Assembly: GCA_905234465.1 (NCBI GenBank)
Contig: CAJOHU010000004.1
Location: 1 to 45,901 of the forward strand
Origin: an uncultured Alphaproteobacteria bacterium
Lineage (GTDB): Bacteria; Pseudomonadota; Alphaproteobacteria; Rs-D84
DNA: 45,901 nt
Direction of reading: 5' to 3'
Part shown: piece by piece, positions 289 through 45,372 of the stretch
Numbering within the stretch: position 1 is the stretch's first letter
How the letters are laid out: each line of letters starts with the position of its first letter
Position numbers and translations under genes: made by a program
Notes under the pieces: generated by a model
Databases searched by the model: none
What the model saw: only the letters and a program-made list of their open reading frames with translations
What the model was told of the DNA's origin: nothing

Positions 289-362
289 TTAGTGGTTAGT
301 GATAGTGGTTAGTAAACGGTGGCAAATGCCACCGTTTTTTTTCCACTAGCCACTAACCACTA
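289..362. repeat. TTAGTGG-type repeat in inverted arrangement around a terminator hairpin
   Basis: TTAGTGGTTAGTGATAGTGGTTAG ... hairpin ACGGTGGCAAATGCCACCGT + T8 ... CCACTAGCCACTAACCACTA; the repeat provides the accC TAG stop. Confidence 0.75.
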
Positions 363-1718
363 TTTCTTTTTATTTTCTTTATTTAGATATTCTTCCAACC
401 AATGATTATCAAAATTCAATGTGCGGACATCACGATTGTTTAATAATTTCTTTTGCAATGGAATCGTTGTTTTGACACCTTCTATGACAAATTCATCCAA
501 TGCGCGTTCCGCACGCATTATACACGCCGAACGAGACTGAGCATGAACAATCAATTTCGCAATCATTGAATCATATGTTGGCGGAATAGTATACCCAGTA
601 TAAACCGCACTGTCCACGCGAACACCAAGCCCACCAGACGGGGCATACAATGTTATCTTGCCCGGGTTTGGAACAAAATCTTGCGGGTCTTCGGCATTGA
701 TTCTGAATTCTATGGCGTGACCGTGCGGAATAACATTAGATTGTGTATAACCCAACTTTTCCCCCGCCGCGATACGAATCTGTTCACGCACCAAATCAAC
801 ACCGTACACCATTTCCGTCACAGGGTGTTCAACCTGAAGCCGCGTATTCATTTCCAAGAAATAAAATTTTCCACCTTCATACATAAATTCAAATGTGCCG
901 GCATTTGTATAGCCCATTTTTTTCGCCGCGGTTTTACAAATTTCAATCATATCATCGCGCTGTTTTTGGGTCAATGCCGCCGCAGGACATTCTTCCATCA
1001 CTTTCTGGTTCTTGCGTTGCAAAGAACAATCGCGTTCACCAAATATCACAACATTGCCGTGTTTATCGCCCAAGACCTGAAATTCTATGTGACGCGGGTG
1101 CAATAATAATTTTTCCATATACAGTGTATCATCGCCAAAACCACTGCGCGCCTCGTTTTTGGTAATCTCAAACGCTTCTGCCATTTGGTCTTCGGACATA
1201 ACCGGGCGCATACCACGCCCGCCGCCGCCCGCCGCCGCCTTTAACATTACCGGGTACCCAATTTTTTTACCCCATTTAAGTGCGTCTTCCAATGTGTCAA
1301 CCGCACCATCAGACCCCGGCACAACGGGCAACCCACATTCTATGGCGGTCTTTTTGGCGTTAACCTTGTCGCCCATCTTGTTTATCATCGCTGCATCTGG
1401 TCCAATCCATATAAGACCATGCTGTTCAACCTTTTGGACAAAGTCTGAACGTTCAGATAAAAATCCATATCCAGGATGAATCGCATCAGCATTAGTCAAC
1501 AACGCCGCTGTCAATATCGCAGATTCATTAAGGTAAGAATCACGCGATGGTCCCGGACCTATACATACAGATTCGTCCGCTAACTGAACATGCATCGCAT
1601 CACGATCAACCGTAGAATAAACCGCAACAGTGCGTATCCCCATATCACGGCACGCACGAATGATTCGCAAGGCAATTTCCCCACGATTCGCAATTAAAAC
1701 TTTTTTTATCTTTGGCAT
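360..1718 (-). CDS. accC: acetyl-CoA carboxylase, biotin carboxylase subunit
   Basis: KKVLIANRGEIALRIIRACRDMGI, KAAAGGGGRGMR, EMNTRLQVEHPVTE. Confidence 0.97.
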   Translation of the reverse strand: MPKIKKVLIANRGEIALRIIRACRDMGIRTVAVYSTVDRDAMHVQLADESVCIGPGPSRDSYLNESAILTAALLTNADAIHPGYGFLSERSDFVQKVEQHGLIWIGPDAAMINKMGDKVNAKKTAIECGLPVVPGSDGAVDTLEDALKWGKKIGYPVMLKAAAGGGGRGMRPVMSEDQMAEAFEITKNEARSGFGDDTLYMEKLLLHPRHIEFQVLGDKHGNVVIFGERDCSLQRKNQKVMEECPAAALTQKQRDDMIEICKTAAKKMGYTNAGTFEFMYEGGKFYFLEMNTRLQVEHPVTEMVYGVDLVREQIRIAAGEKLGYTQSNVIPHGHAIEFRINAEDPQDFVPNPGKITLYAPSGGLGVRVDSAVYTGYTIPPTYDSMIAKLIVHAQSRSACIMRAERALDEFVIEGVKTTIPLQKKLLNNRDVRTLNFDNHWLEEYLNKENKKK

Positions 1719-9831: not shown

Positions 9832-9868
9832 TTAGTGGTTAGTGATACTGGTTAGGGGTTAGTGGTTA
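9832..9868. repeat. TTAGTGG-type dispersed repeat
   Basis: TTAGTGGTTAGTGATACTGGTTAGGGGTTAGTGGTTAA abutting the stop of the 9866-10060 ORF. Confidence 0.7.
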
Positions 9869-10060
9869 AATAATATATGAATTTCCTTGTTTTCTGTCGT
9901 TTGCAAGACGATTTCCCAACCTTTGCGCCACAAACCCCAATATCGCAACAAATTCGCTTTGTTTTAATCTGAATTTGGGGTTGCGTTCAAAAAAGTATAA
10001 TAAATCACCATATAAAGATTTTTGGGCATATTCTGGTAGAACCTGATTTTTTTCTTTCAT
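9866..10060 (-). CDS. small hypothetical protein, RLxQSEFV family (64 aa)
   Basis: MKEKNQVLPEYAQKSLYGDLLYFFERNPKFRLKQSEFVAILGFVAQRLG...; SD AGGAAG upstream; paralogous to ORF at 45175. Confidence 0.7.
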   Translation of the reverse strand: MKEKNQVLPEYAQKSLYGDLLYFFERNPKFRLKQSEFVAILGFVAQRLGNRLANDRKQGNSYII

Positions 10061-10080
10061 CTTACTTCCTTTTTGAATCA

Positions 10081-10222
10081 AAAAAGCCATCTTTAATGAT
10101 GGCAGGAGGGTAAGAACTACTTTACACCAAATAGCCCGATGTATTGATTATTTCACCGGCCTCCTGCATAAGCAGAAGGTTATTTAATGTCGGCGCGCCG
10201 ACAGGTGCAAAGATGGTTCTTA
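10081..10222 (-). ncRNA. candidate structured attenuator leader, copy A
   Basis: Closing helix UAAGAAC/GUUCUUA + CUUUGCACC/GGUGUAAAG; H1 UGUCGGCGCGCCGACA; H2 CCUUCUGC-UUAU-GCAGGAGG; H3 CCGGUG/CAUCGG; downstream CCUCCUGC complementary to H2 3' arm; terminator GCCAUC/GAUGGC + U-run. Confidence 0.75.
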
Positions 10223-10253
10223 CTCCACCATATGACAATCGCCATACACGATA

Positions 10254-10282
10254 ATTATAAACATATTAATTTCTGATTGCAA
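10254..10282 (-). promoter_or_regulatory. sigma70-type promoter for leader A
   Basis: Minus strand TTGCAA (10282-10277), 17-nt spacer, TATAAT (10259-10254). Confidence 0.7.
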
Positions 10283-28408: not shown

Positions 28409-28440
28409 ATTAGTGGTTAGTGTTAGTGGTTAGTGTTAGT
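28409..28440. repeat. TTAGTGG-type repeat after dnaG
   Basis: TGATTAGTGGTTAGTGTTAGTGGTTAGTGTTAGT followed by terminator hairpin. Confidence 0.75.
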
Positions 28441-28474: not shown

Positions 28475-28741
28475 TTATTGACGTTGAAAACGTTGTAGAA
28501 AATTAAAAGTTTCCTGTTGTTTTTGTTCAACTTTTTCTTTATTTGATTGTTTTTTTGCGTCTCCTTTCGCTTTTTCTTGTTCTTTATATGCTCTTACAAC
28601 ATCACCGCGTAATGTATATATTGTTTTTGGACTTAAATTTACCAATTCACCATTTATTTCAAGACGAAAATTTCCTTCATAACTTCTGTCAAACAATAAC
28701 CGAAATATACATTCATTTGTTTCGTTTGAATACACATTCAT
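28475..28741 (-). CDS. small hypothetical protein (88 aa, alternative start inside the 28475-28822 ORF)
   Basis: MNVYSNETNECIFRLLFDRSYEGNFRLEINGELVNLSPKTIYTLRGDVVRAYKEQEKAK... Confidence 0.5.
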   Translation of the reverse strand: MNVYSNETNECIFRLLFDRSYEGNFRLEINGELVNLSPKTIYTLRGDVVRAYKEQEKAKGDAKKQSNKEKVEQKQQETFNFLQRFQRQ

Positions 28742-28838
28742 ACTGTTGATTTTCTTTTGGTTCAATCCTGACAGGACTTTTTTGTAATATATCTTGCAAC
28801 ATTTGTAAAGTTGCGTTTTCAAAGTGACTTGGCTGCAT
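28713..28838 (-). CDS. small hypothetical protein (41 aa), first ORF after leader B
   Basis: ATG with SD AAAGGA: MQPSHFENATLQMLQDILQKSPVRIEPKENQQYECVFKRNK*; overlaps next ORF in +1 frame. Confidence 0.5.
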   Translation of the reverse strand: MQPSHFENATLQMLQDILQKSPVRIEPKENQQYECVFKRNK

Positions 28839-28863: not shown

Positions 28864-29006
28864 AAAAAAACCACAAGAAATTATTTTCATGTGGTTGGAG
28901 TTCAGAAAACAATGCAGCATTGTCGTGCTTATTCAATATATTCACACACTCCAACCAATGGTTGGAAATTTAACGCAATCTTTTGCGGCTGCACGTGCTT
29001 TCTGAA
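28864..29006 (-). ncRNA. candidate structured attenuator leader, copy B
   Basis: Closing helix UUCAGAAA/UUUCUGAA + UGCAGC/GCUGCA; H1 CGCAA-AAGA-UUGCG; H2 UCCAACC-AUU-GGUUGGA; H3 GUG/CAC; downstream ACUCCAACC complementary to GGUUGGAGU; terminator AACCACA/UGUGGUU + U-run. Confidence 0.75.
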
Positions 29007-29092
29007 ACACATCCACGGAACACCCACGGACAATGTCACGTTAGCAAAAATTTAGACAAAAATCAATTAGAAAAAATATTTATGTTAAAAGT

Positions 29093-29173
29093 GTTAGTGG
29101 TTAGTAAAATCTGGAATAAGTTCACAATTACGAAATTATTCCAGATACCACTAACCACTTACACTAACCACTA
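29093..29173. repeat. inverted TTAGTGG repeats flanking an 11-bp terminator-like hairpin
   Basis: TTAGTGGTTAGT...ATCTGGAATAA/TTATTCCAGAT...CCACTAACCACTTACACTAACCACTAAA. Confidence 0.75.
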
Positions 29174-29782
29174 AAAACACGATTTTAATTCGCTGTTATC
29201 TTCGTTTTGGTCAACGCGTTTATTACGAATTTCTTGTGCCGCGTTTATTTTTTGTTTCATTAAAATAGATTCTGGGTGGTTTGTCATTTTATGATTTATT
29301 TCTTCAATCGCAAAATCTATATCTGTGCGTGATTGAACAAATATTGGCATAACAGAATTCGCAGAATTAAATACAGAATTTTCTATATCTGATTTTAAAT
29401 CTTTGATAACTGACAAATATGCATCTATGTGTTTTTTTTCATGATTTAATATTGCATCATATGAACAAGACCCGGGGATATAAGAACCATCAATCTTGAC
29501 AGAAAAATCATTATACCCAATTAACGCATCTACAGATTTTAATACAACACAATAACCGCCGTCAGATGAAAATATATCAACAACAATATCGTAATCTTCA
29601 ATTAATGTCGCAAGTACATTTCCGTGATATTTATCCATTGGTTCATCTGATAAAACAACACTGGTTTTATGCATTGGATTTAAAACATTTATTTTTGGTG
29701 CAGTTTTATAATTAACACAACTATCTGCGAATACAGAAAAATTCACAATACAAAATATAAAAACAATAAAATATTTTAACAT
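29171..29782 (-). CDS. hypothetical exported protein with HExxH-type motif
   Basis: MLKYFIVFIFCIVNFSVFADSC signal peptide; HEKKHIDAYL. Confidence 0.65.
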   Translation of the reverse strand: MLKYFIVFIFCIVNFSVFADSCVNYKTAPKINVLNPMHKTSVVLSDEPMDKYHGNVLATLIEDYDIVVDIFSSDGGYCVVLKSVDALIGYNDFSVKIDGSYIPGSCSYDAILNHEKKHIDAYLSVIKDLKSDIENSVFNSANSVMPIFVQSRTDIDFAIEEINHKMTNHPESILMKQKINAAQEIRNKRVDQNEDNSELKSCF

Positions 29783-43835: not shown

Positions 43836-44906
43836 ATGAATAAAATTGAAATTCTTTACGCCAAAATGATTTGCCGGTTTAGTAAAGACAAACGTATCGC
43901 GATTTGGCGTAAATTGGTTTCTTTGCTGAAAAATGATTTTACGTTGGTGAATGCGCTGAACAGATTACAGATGATAGAATCGCATGGTGGTGCCAAACCG
44001 AATGAACCATTTGCAATATGTATGCGCGAATGGGAAAAAAATCTTGAACGCGGAATGAGTTTTTCCGAAGCAACCCGTGGTTGGGTCCCGCCCGAAGAAA
44101 CATTACTGTTAACATCCGGGAATATGTCCAGTTTGATTGTGGCATTGGAAAATGTCGGGCGAATAATTGTTGCAAATAAAAGAATAGGGGGCGCCGTATT
44201 CAGCGCGATTGCGTATCCGACATTGTTGTTGGTTTTGGTGTTTGCAATAATTATTATGGTTGGGCTTTATTTGGTTCCGCCACTGTCCGCGGTTGCGGGT
44301 GAAGATATGGTTTGGTCGGGTGGGGCGGCATCACTTATATGGATATCAAACATTGCGGGAAAGTATTGGAAAATTTTTTCGGTTGCGGTGATTGTTATTG
44401 GTGTTGTTGTGTGGTTGTCTTTGCCGCGGTTTTCTGGACGTCTGCGTGCGGTGGCGGACAAATTACCGCCGTGGAGTATATATAAAATACGAATGTCTGT
44501 GGGGTGGATGATGTCATTGTCGGCCATGGTTGCCGCCGGGGTTGCGATACCTGATGCGATGCGTATGTTGGCGGATAATTCAAACAGATACATGCGGCGT
44601 ATTTTGGAAGAAACACTGCATTATATTGCAAACGGTGATAACCTTGGGAATGCGTTGCAAAATACGGGTATGGATTTTCCAAACCAAGAATTAATTGGTG
44701 ATTTGACTGTGTATGCCGATATGAACGATTTTGATGAAAACTTGACCCAGATTTCAAACGATTATTTGGAAAATTCAGTTAAAAAAATTGAATCTTTATC
44801 AGAAGCGTTGAATACAATTGGAATATTATTGATATCTGGGGTTATTGCATGGATAGTTCTAGGCACATTTCAGATGCAAGACCAAATCACGGCGTTTTTG
44901 AGTTAG
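43836..44906 (+). CDS. PilR/GspF-type pilus inner-membrane platform protein
   Basis: T2SSF-like duplicated membrane domain, follows pilus ATPase. Confidence 0.82.
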   Translation: MNKIEILYAKMICRFSKDKRIAIWRKLVSLLKNDFTLVNALNRLQMIESHGGAKPNEPFAICMREWEKNLERGMSFSEATRGWVPPEETLLLTSGNMSSLIVALENVGRIIVANKRIGGAVFSAIAYPTLLLVLVFAIIIMVGLYLVPPLSAVAGEDMVWSGGAASLIWISNIAGKYWKIFSVAVIVIGVVVWLSLPRFSGRLRAVADKLPPWSIYKIRMSVGWMMSLSAMVAAGVAIPDAMRMLADNSNRYMRRILEETLHYIANGDNLGNALQNTGMDFPNQELIGDLTVYADMNDFDENLTQISNDYLENSVKKIESLSEALNTIGILLISGVIAWIVLGTFQMQDQITAFLS

Positions 44907-44932
44907 TGGTTAGTGATAGTGTTAGTGGTTAG
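44904..44932. repeat. TTAGTGG-type repeat overlapping the GspF-like stop
   Basis: AGTTAGTGGTTAGTGATAGTGTTAGTGGTTAGTG; TAG is the stop codon. Confidence 0.75.
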
Positions 44933-45006
44933 TGTTTTTTTTGTTTGATTTTTAATTGATTTTATTATATCTTTTCCGTGTCGGCAGGTGTTCTGTTGAT
45001 AGGGTG

Positions 45007-45160
45007 TCACAGCCCTTTAATAAATCTAGGTGTCAGCGATGACATAAAAAATCCAGCCATTGGTTGGATGGGGTGATATATATAAATAAACCCACTATTT
45101 ACCTAGATTTATAGCTGTGAACATCCAACCGTCAAAAATTTTTTTAGGCGGTTTTTTATT
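45007..45160 (+). ncRNA. candidate structured attenuator leader, copy C
   Basis: Closing helix UCACAGC/GCUGUGA + 12-bp AUAAAUCUAGGU/ACCUAGAUUUAU; H1 GUCA-GCGA-UGAC; H2 AUCCAGCC-AUU-GGUUGGAU; H3 GGG/CCC; downstream CAUCCAACC complementary to GGUUGGAUG; terminator AACCGUC/GGCGGUU + UUUUUUAUUUUU. Confidence 0.8.
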
Positions 45161-45336: not shown

Positions 45337-45372
45337 TTAGTGGTTAGTGATAGTGGTTAGGGGTTAGTGTTA
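45337..45372. repeat. TTAGTGG-type repeat
   Basis: ATTAGTGGTTAGTGATAGTGGTTAGGGGTTAGTGTTAG. Confidence 0.75.

Follow-up and report, generated by a model that had tools for sequence, protein, structure and literature searches.

Copy A, which occupies positions 10282-10080 on the minus strand of the window (the whole stretch of DNA that was analysed, 45,901 nucleotides), is a real RNA with two shapes and, according to the folding models, probably either blocks transcription into the small downstream gene or lets it pass. We consider it fairly likely that copy A serves a 64-aa gene as its 5' leader and acts as a two-state cis transcription attenuator, i.e., a module of the C4/sRNA-Xcc1 type turned cis-acting. 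Compensatory changes across ~190 copies support two mutually exclusive structures. In state 1, the upstream strands a1 and b1 are paired with the 3' part of the leader (helix P1), hairpin H2 is closed, and the terminator overlaps strand D. In state 2, the 3' arm of H2 is paired with D (PAT), enclosing hairpins H3 and P4, and this pairing conflicts with the terminator.

Organization of copy A and of the window

As read from the sequence, the copy A leader is followed by AGGAAG, which resembles a Shine-Dalgarno (SD) sequence, and the 64-aa ORF. The promoter, helices, strand D, terminator with a 2-nt overlap with D, SD sequence, and 64-aa ORF that the first-pass annotation had described are all present on the minus strand, and its list of structural elements stands, except that it missed hairpins Pa and P4. 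The parts of copy A are as follows.

10254..10282, minus: promoter, TTGCAA (10282-10277), 17-nt spacer, TATAAT (10259-10254); direct reading
10212..10229, minus: hairpin Pa, GGUGG (10229-10225) / CCAUC (10216-10212), with loop AGUAAGAA holding the a1 strand
10216..10222, minus: a1 strand UAAGAAC, 5' side of outer P1; partner GUUCUUA at 10117-10111
10204..10212, minus: b1 strand CUUUGCACC, 5' side of inner P1; partner GGUGUAAAG at 10128-10120; inner P1 covaries
10188..10203, minus: hairpin H1, UGUCGG-CGCG-CCGACA; predicted fold and P1-state alignment
10172..10179, minus: 5' arm of H2, CCUUCUGC, the anti-PAT strand; predicted fold and alignment
10160..10167, minus: 3' arm of H2, GCAGGAGG, also the 5' strand of PAT; perfect complement of D; covaries
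10136..10159, minus: hairpin H3, CCGGUG (10159-10154) / CAUCGG (10141-10136), with a conserved AU-rich 12-nt loop
10134-10129 / 10122-10117, minus: hairpin P4, CUAUUU / AAGUAG; covaries in the family
10128-10120, minus: b' strand GGUGUAAAG, in the loop and 3' side of P4
10117-10111, minus: a' strand GUUCUUA, after b' (P4 to a' spans 10111..10134)
10102..10109, minus: strand D, CCUCCUGC, the 3' strand of PAT; sequence reading and covariation
10080..10103, minus: intrinsic terminator GCCAUC-AUUAAA-GAUGGC-U6, arms 10103-10098 / 10091-10086
9866..10060, minus: 64-aa ORF, ATG at 10060, stop ending at 9866; presumed to be controlled by copy A

The loop of H2 in copy A is UUAU (between 10179-10172 and 10167-10160), and the family consensus of the H3 loop is GAAUAUAUUGAAUAA. 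H1 is optional across the family, being missing, for example, from units u2 and u4 of genome G003, and TATAAT-like boxes are also found upstream of many other copies. The structure drawn for copy A is exactly the minimum free energy (MFE) structure, with −65.3 kcal/mol compared to −39.1 ± 4.3 for shuffled sequences (z −6.07, 0 of 200 shuffles as good). As for the 64-aa ORF, it is a distant paralogue of the ORF of copy B and has no Pfam match and just two relatives, on which grounds a conserved small protein as the functional unit was rejected.

Two further copies, B and C, lie in the window. In the list below, bit scores refer to R2, a full-structure covariance model from which copy A was left out and which knows the P1 state only.

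44999..45153, plus: copy B leader and terminator; PAT strands 45062-45070 and 45122-45130; 73.6 bits
45175..45333, plus: 52-aa ORF 3' of copy B, GTG start
28871..29012, minus: copy C leader and terminator; PAT strands 28956-28949 and 28900-28893; 80.2 bits
28713..28838, minus: 41-aa ORF 3' of copy C

Both folds are far more stable than their shuffles (z −5.93 for copy B and −6.15 for copy C). The claim of one RNA architecture with differing pairing sequences in A, B, and C holds in model-guided alignments and extends to ~190 copies. In the region 28475-28838 (minus strand), a 115-aa ORF and the 41-aa ORF of copy C overlap in different frames; the pair could be two genes or one frameshifted gene.

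An intergenic repeat of the TTAGTGGTTAGTG type adjoins all three RNA-ORF units in the window (289-363, 9832-9864, 28410-28435, 29094-29174, 44903-44934, and 45337-45369) and is absent around other units. With 39 exact copies in its own genome and none in four congeners, the repeat is species-specific, and it is absent near several leader copies of the same genome; a mobile cassette bounded by TTAGTGGTTAGTG was therefore rejected. A partial, broken tRNA-Val(GAC) copy is located at about 9785-9720 on the minus strand, directly upstream of the intact tRNA-Val (9704-9628).

Covariation of the two structures

According to the alignment of 36 copies, the P1 state, comprising outer and inner P1, H1, H2, and H3, has 91% of cells paired and double changes at 26 of 31 pairs, with 0 of 500 shuffles as good; when the strands are slid, pairing falls to ~40%. 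On the R2 alignment, 95.2% of P1-state cells are paired, with a covariation score of 0.683 and 879 double-change cells vs 224 in shuffled alignments. Outer P1 alone reaches 97.6% and has double changes at every pair.

Regarding the second structure, Pa, PAT, P4, H1, and H3 together have 96.5% of cells paired. The PAT columns of alignment A11 are biased, because 80 loci were fetched by a pattern fixing GGTTGGAG and CTCCAACC; loci obtained in this way are excluded from alignment A12, used for the 109-copy test of Pa, PAT, and P4. In these 109 copies, aligned on R2 with its P1 state only, 93.2% of cells are paired, 124 cells carry double changes (37 expected), and the covariation score is 0.251, compared to 0.123 for shuffled and at most 0.075 for slid strands. 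The first-pass annotation had made its reading depend on the 3' arm of H2 and D covarying, and the pairing is indeed kept through two-sided changes, e.g., GCAGGAGG/CCUCCUGC in copy A vs GGUUGGAG/CUCCAACC in most copies. Pair variants are likewise found in Pa (GGGG:CCCC, GAGG:CCUC, GUGG:CCAC, and GCGAG:CUCGC) and P4 (CUAU:AUAG, CAAU:AUUG, CUGU:ACAG, and GAUA:UAUC). PAT is better kept than hairpin H2, which often has G-U pairs or mismatches.

Pa and P4 are conserved in the family, and each is incompatible with the P1 helices. P1 and P4 forming simultaneously as a pseudoknot was rejected, since their strands share bases in many copies, which makes two states the simpler description. Judged from the alignments, both structures are evidently under selection.

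Size and distribution of the family

Searching at the DNA level with copy A as the query uncovered a tandem array in a congener. R1, a covariance model of the core built from four sequences other than copy A, recovers copy A at 30.8 bits; R2 recovers it at 59.9 bits (E 5.4e-12, own-genome search) and finds 8 copies in its 0.9-Mb genome. According to R1, 33 of the 35 genomes of the genus (order Rs-D84, Candidatus Enterousia) have 2-42 copies each, elsewhere in the order matches are fewer or zero, and six genomes from outside it have none. R2 matches 2 of 399 Pseudomonadota genomes, both belonging to copy A's genus. When 84,980 species genomes were scanned for an exact pattern, the matches listed came solely from uncultured gut Alphaproteobacteria and termite-gut metagenome-assembled genomes, the named ones being Candidatus Enterousia, a member of order Rs-D84 with reduced genomes (PMC12306168). 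Compared with 4,227 Rfam families, none of the scanned leaders scores at or above a family's cut-off, and in the window nothing except tRNAs does so. The leader family is new and, in the genomes sampled, restricted to order Rs-D84.

For approximately 22 of the 191 copies, no clear ORF follows; some stand in tandem, with two to several leader units in a row and no evident ORF between them (L010:8240-8800, minus strand; L069, L070, and L022). Three IMG/VR contigs (L109, L110, and L111) carry the leader as well. The ABC-transporter gene on L110 is that of bacterial copies, so these contigs may be host or island DNA. A phage origin by DNA similarity was rejected, with no match among 50,697 phage records.

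Termination and downstream genes

In 150 of 174 copies, D leads into a hairpin with a U-tract, compared to 13 when shuffled, and the terminator usually begins 2-6 nt inside D; in copy A, its 5' arm shares just 2 nt with D. The short terminated transcript foreseen for copy A stands as a prediction, with a slightly greater length: the end predicted at the U-tract gives ~165-170 nt rather than 140-165 nt. Among 169 copies with an ORF, 149 have the start codon 30-69 nt downstream of D, and it is ATG in 144. An intrinsic terminator is thus located before the start codon and is predicted to be mutually exclusive with pairing upstream.

ViennaRNA MFE predictions for 150 full leaders contain the terminator in 132 cases and PAT in 2. 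Removing a1/b1 leaves the terminator in 106; trimming the leader further, to the PAT 5' strand, yields PAT in 124 cases and a terminator in 38. When structures are forced, the P1 (OFF) state is better by ~10-12 kcal/mol in nearly all copies. Since the predicted resting state is OFF, an outside event would have to remove the 5' strands for switching.

As for the downstream genes, 81 of 169 proteins start like signal peptides according to a crude rule. Pfam comparison of 132 of them assigns HTH_31 to 16; other matches include ABC transporters, GmrSD_N, glycosyltransferases, PLD, trypsin, and a tyrosyl-tRNA synthetase. The classes listed are thus HTH, exported, transport, or unknown small proteins, and no single pathway stands out. 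A type III toxin-antitoxin system was rejected, there being no ToxN-like toxin among the 25 Pfam families listed for the 132 proteins.

With antisense- and riboswitch-type attenuators the leaders share a predicted pair of mutually exclusive antiterminator and terminator; they differ in reaching no Rfam cut-off and in having no ligand, leader peptide, or antisense RNA assigned. As is typical of riboswitches, the leaders combine two covarying states with a terminator and a loop that is conserved though unpaired, and tens of genes per genome share them. A ligand-sensing riboswitch, whose 4-way junction or conserved H3 loop would bind a metabolite or protein and stabilise one state, is however unlikely, given that the controlled genes have no common pathway, that the junction sequence varies while the pairing strands and H3 loop are conserved best, and that this loop resembles the P2 loop of sRNA-Xcc1.

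We regard as quite improbable that the leaders are free-standing trans-acting sRNAs, with the ORF having its own promoter and the terminator serving just to end the sRNA. Described as a trans-acting sRNA of 88 nt, sRNA-Xcc1 was found as an RNA of about this length (PMC2996969), and the promoter and terminator of the leaders, together with the ORF-less tandem arrays, would suit such a role. An sRNA of this kind, however, would need neither a fixed distance between D and the start codon nor a terminator built into D.

Relation to sRNA-Xcc1 and C4

The motif c4-a1b1 is the complementary region upstream of c4. It has been catalogued separately (PMC2864571), and the C4 antisense RNA of phages P1/P7 consists of a closing stem, two hairpins, and strands a' and b', of which b' covers the ribosome-binding site (PMC5320573). 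As for sRNA-Xcc1, it is found upstream of symE in integron cassettes (PMC12444791). A literature search found no paper linking sRNA-Xcc1 to C4. An integron attC site was rejected for the leaders, since the order and spacing of the complementary boxes do not fit the generally known attC layout.

Over its full length, one better-conserved copy scores 37.9 bits with RF02221 (sRNA-Xcc1); the match region in the leaders is PAT with H3 and P4, aligned to the full RF02221 consensus. Genome searches give at least 32 sub-threshold matches in Rs-D84, the best in four genomes of the order having 50.3 bits (E 1.6e-8), and never reach the cut-off of 53. The best RF01695 (C4) hit in copy A's genome has E 2.35 and lies away from any leader, and neither R1 nor R2 matches sRNA-Xcc1 loci. 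Common descent therefore rests on sub-threshold scores and shared layout.

In terms of layout, both the leaders and sRNA-Xcc1 have two hairpins inside an outer helix; the loop of the first is of the AAUACAA...AAUA type, and the a' strand comes after the second. In both, strands complementary to the 3' part lie upstream, and a gene follows on the same strand. What sets the Rs-D84 copies apart from sRNA-Xcc1 is that they do not attain the cut-off, that a terminator overlaps D, and that most are missing the second complementary copy in the start region of the downstream gene; they also number up to ~40 per genome and precede exported-protein or XRE genes. With C4 and c4-a1b1 they share the three-stem layout, the a'/b' strands, and complementary strands within one transcript; they differ from C4 in having no RF01695 match, b' off the ribosome-binding site, and an intrinsic terminator instead.

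RF02221 is present in 57 of the 399 Pseudomonadota genomes. At 30 of its loci, upstream strands are complementary to the 3' part of the core (mean score 10.25 vs 8.06 ± 0.23), and downstream, in the vicinity of the start codon, there is a second complementary set (8.71 vs 7.11 ± 0.24), with 0 of 100 permutations as good. At these loci (L226-L255, other Pseudomonadota), complementary strands thus flank the core as in C4, and genes follow; the N-termini of some of their products resemble those of phage antirepressors or of SymE. Further, a U-rich hairpin located upstream bears a strand complementary to the 5' arm of sRNA-Xcc1. A CRISPR array lies just upstream of one such locus (L240:24-1193).

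The Rs-D84 leaders keep the upstream strands, with a1:a' as outer and b1:b' as inner P1. The usual ribosome-binding-site target, however, appears to be largely lost. It is thus highly improbable that the leaders are C4-type translational repressors, with a' and b' binding the ribosome-binding site of the downstream gene: 6-9 nt complementary to a' occur near the start codon in some copies (L108, L107, L148; GUAAGA in copy A), with a small overall excess (4.93 vs 4.65, sd 0.08), but b' shows no excess, nor does a second Rs-D84 leader type, whereas sRNA-Xcc1 loci clearly do.

This second type (L256-L260, L263, L264, L266, and L267) has an sRNA-Xcc1-like second stem (P2), b1:b' pairing of 9.27 vs 6.51 ± 0.47, a terminator overlapping D, and RF02221 scores up to 50.3 bits. 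It seems to bridge the Rs-D84 leaders and sRNA-Xcc1. Going by such sequence comparisons, the Rs-D84 leaders would best be read as derived from, or sharing their design with, sRNA-Xcc1/C4 antisense RNA modules. Copy A, whose identity the first-pass annotation did not give, is likewise best read as a two-state leader related to these modules.

Proposed mechanism and significance

By default, a1/b1 would pair with a'/b' and H2 would be closed, leaving D free to start the terminator, so that a leader of ~165 nt is released and the gene is off. We infer that PAT acts as an antiterminator in the cell: once the 5' strands, above all the 5' arm of H2, are removed or occupied by some trigger, the 3' arm of H2 would pair with D around H3 and P4, consuming the base of the terminator and letting transcription enter the gene. 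Candidate triggers are trans pairing by RNA of the same locus, RNase P-type cleavage at the 5' end of PAT, and a bound protein. The nucleotide after D is usually A or G, so that the end resembles ACCA or ACCG, which is at most suggestive of RNase P processing.

PAT with H3 and P4, together with a'/b', would correspond to the P1[P2,P3] fold of C4/sRNA-Xcc1, and a1/b1 to their upstream complementary strands. Given these correspondences, the Rs-D84 leaders are best explained as C4/sRNA-Xcc1-type modules turned into cis attenuators, which would have been placed ahead of many genes for exported proteins and small regulators. More tentatively, it is possible that an antisense module of the phage-immunity type was domesticated into genome-wide, self-specific attenuators throughout this order of gut bacteria with reduced genomes, with released leaders acting in trans on matching a1/b1 strands and each gene for an exported protein or regulator sensing the level of its own or sibling transcripts.

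The analysis points to sRNA-Xcc1, regarded as a virulence sRNA that acts in trans, being part of a C4-like module whose complementary strands lie both up- and downstream. As for the gut bacteria themselves, a structured-RNA family outside Rfam appears to control up to ~4% of genes in some of their smallest genomes, and the genes controlled are often those for exported proteins and small regulators, the ones most likely to be important when the bacterium lives with a host or partner cell.
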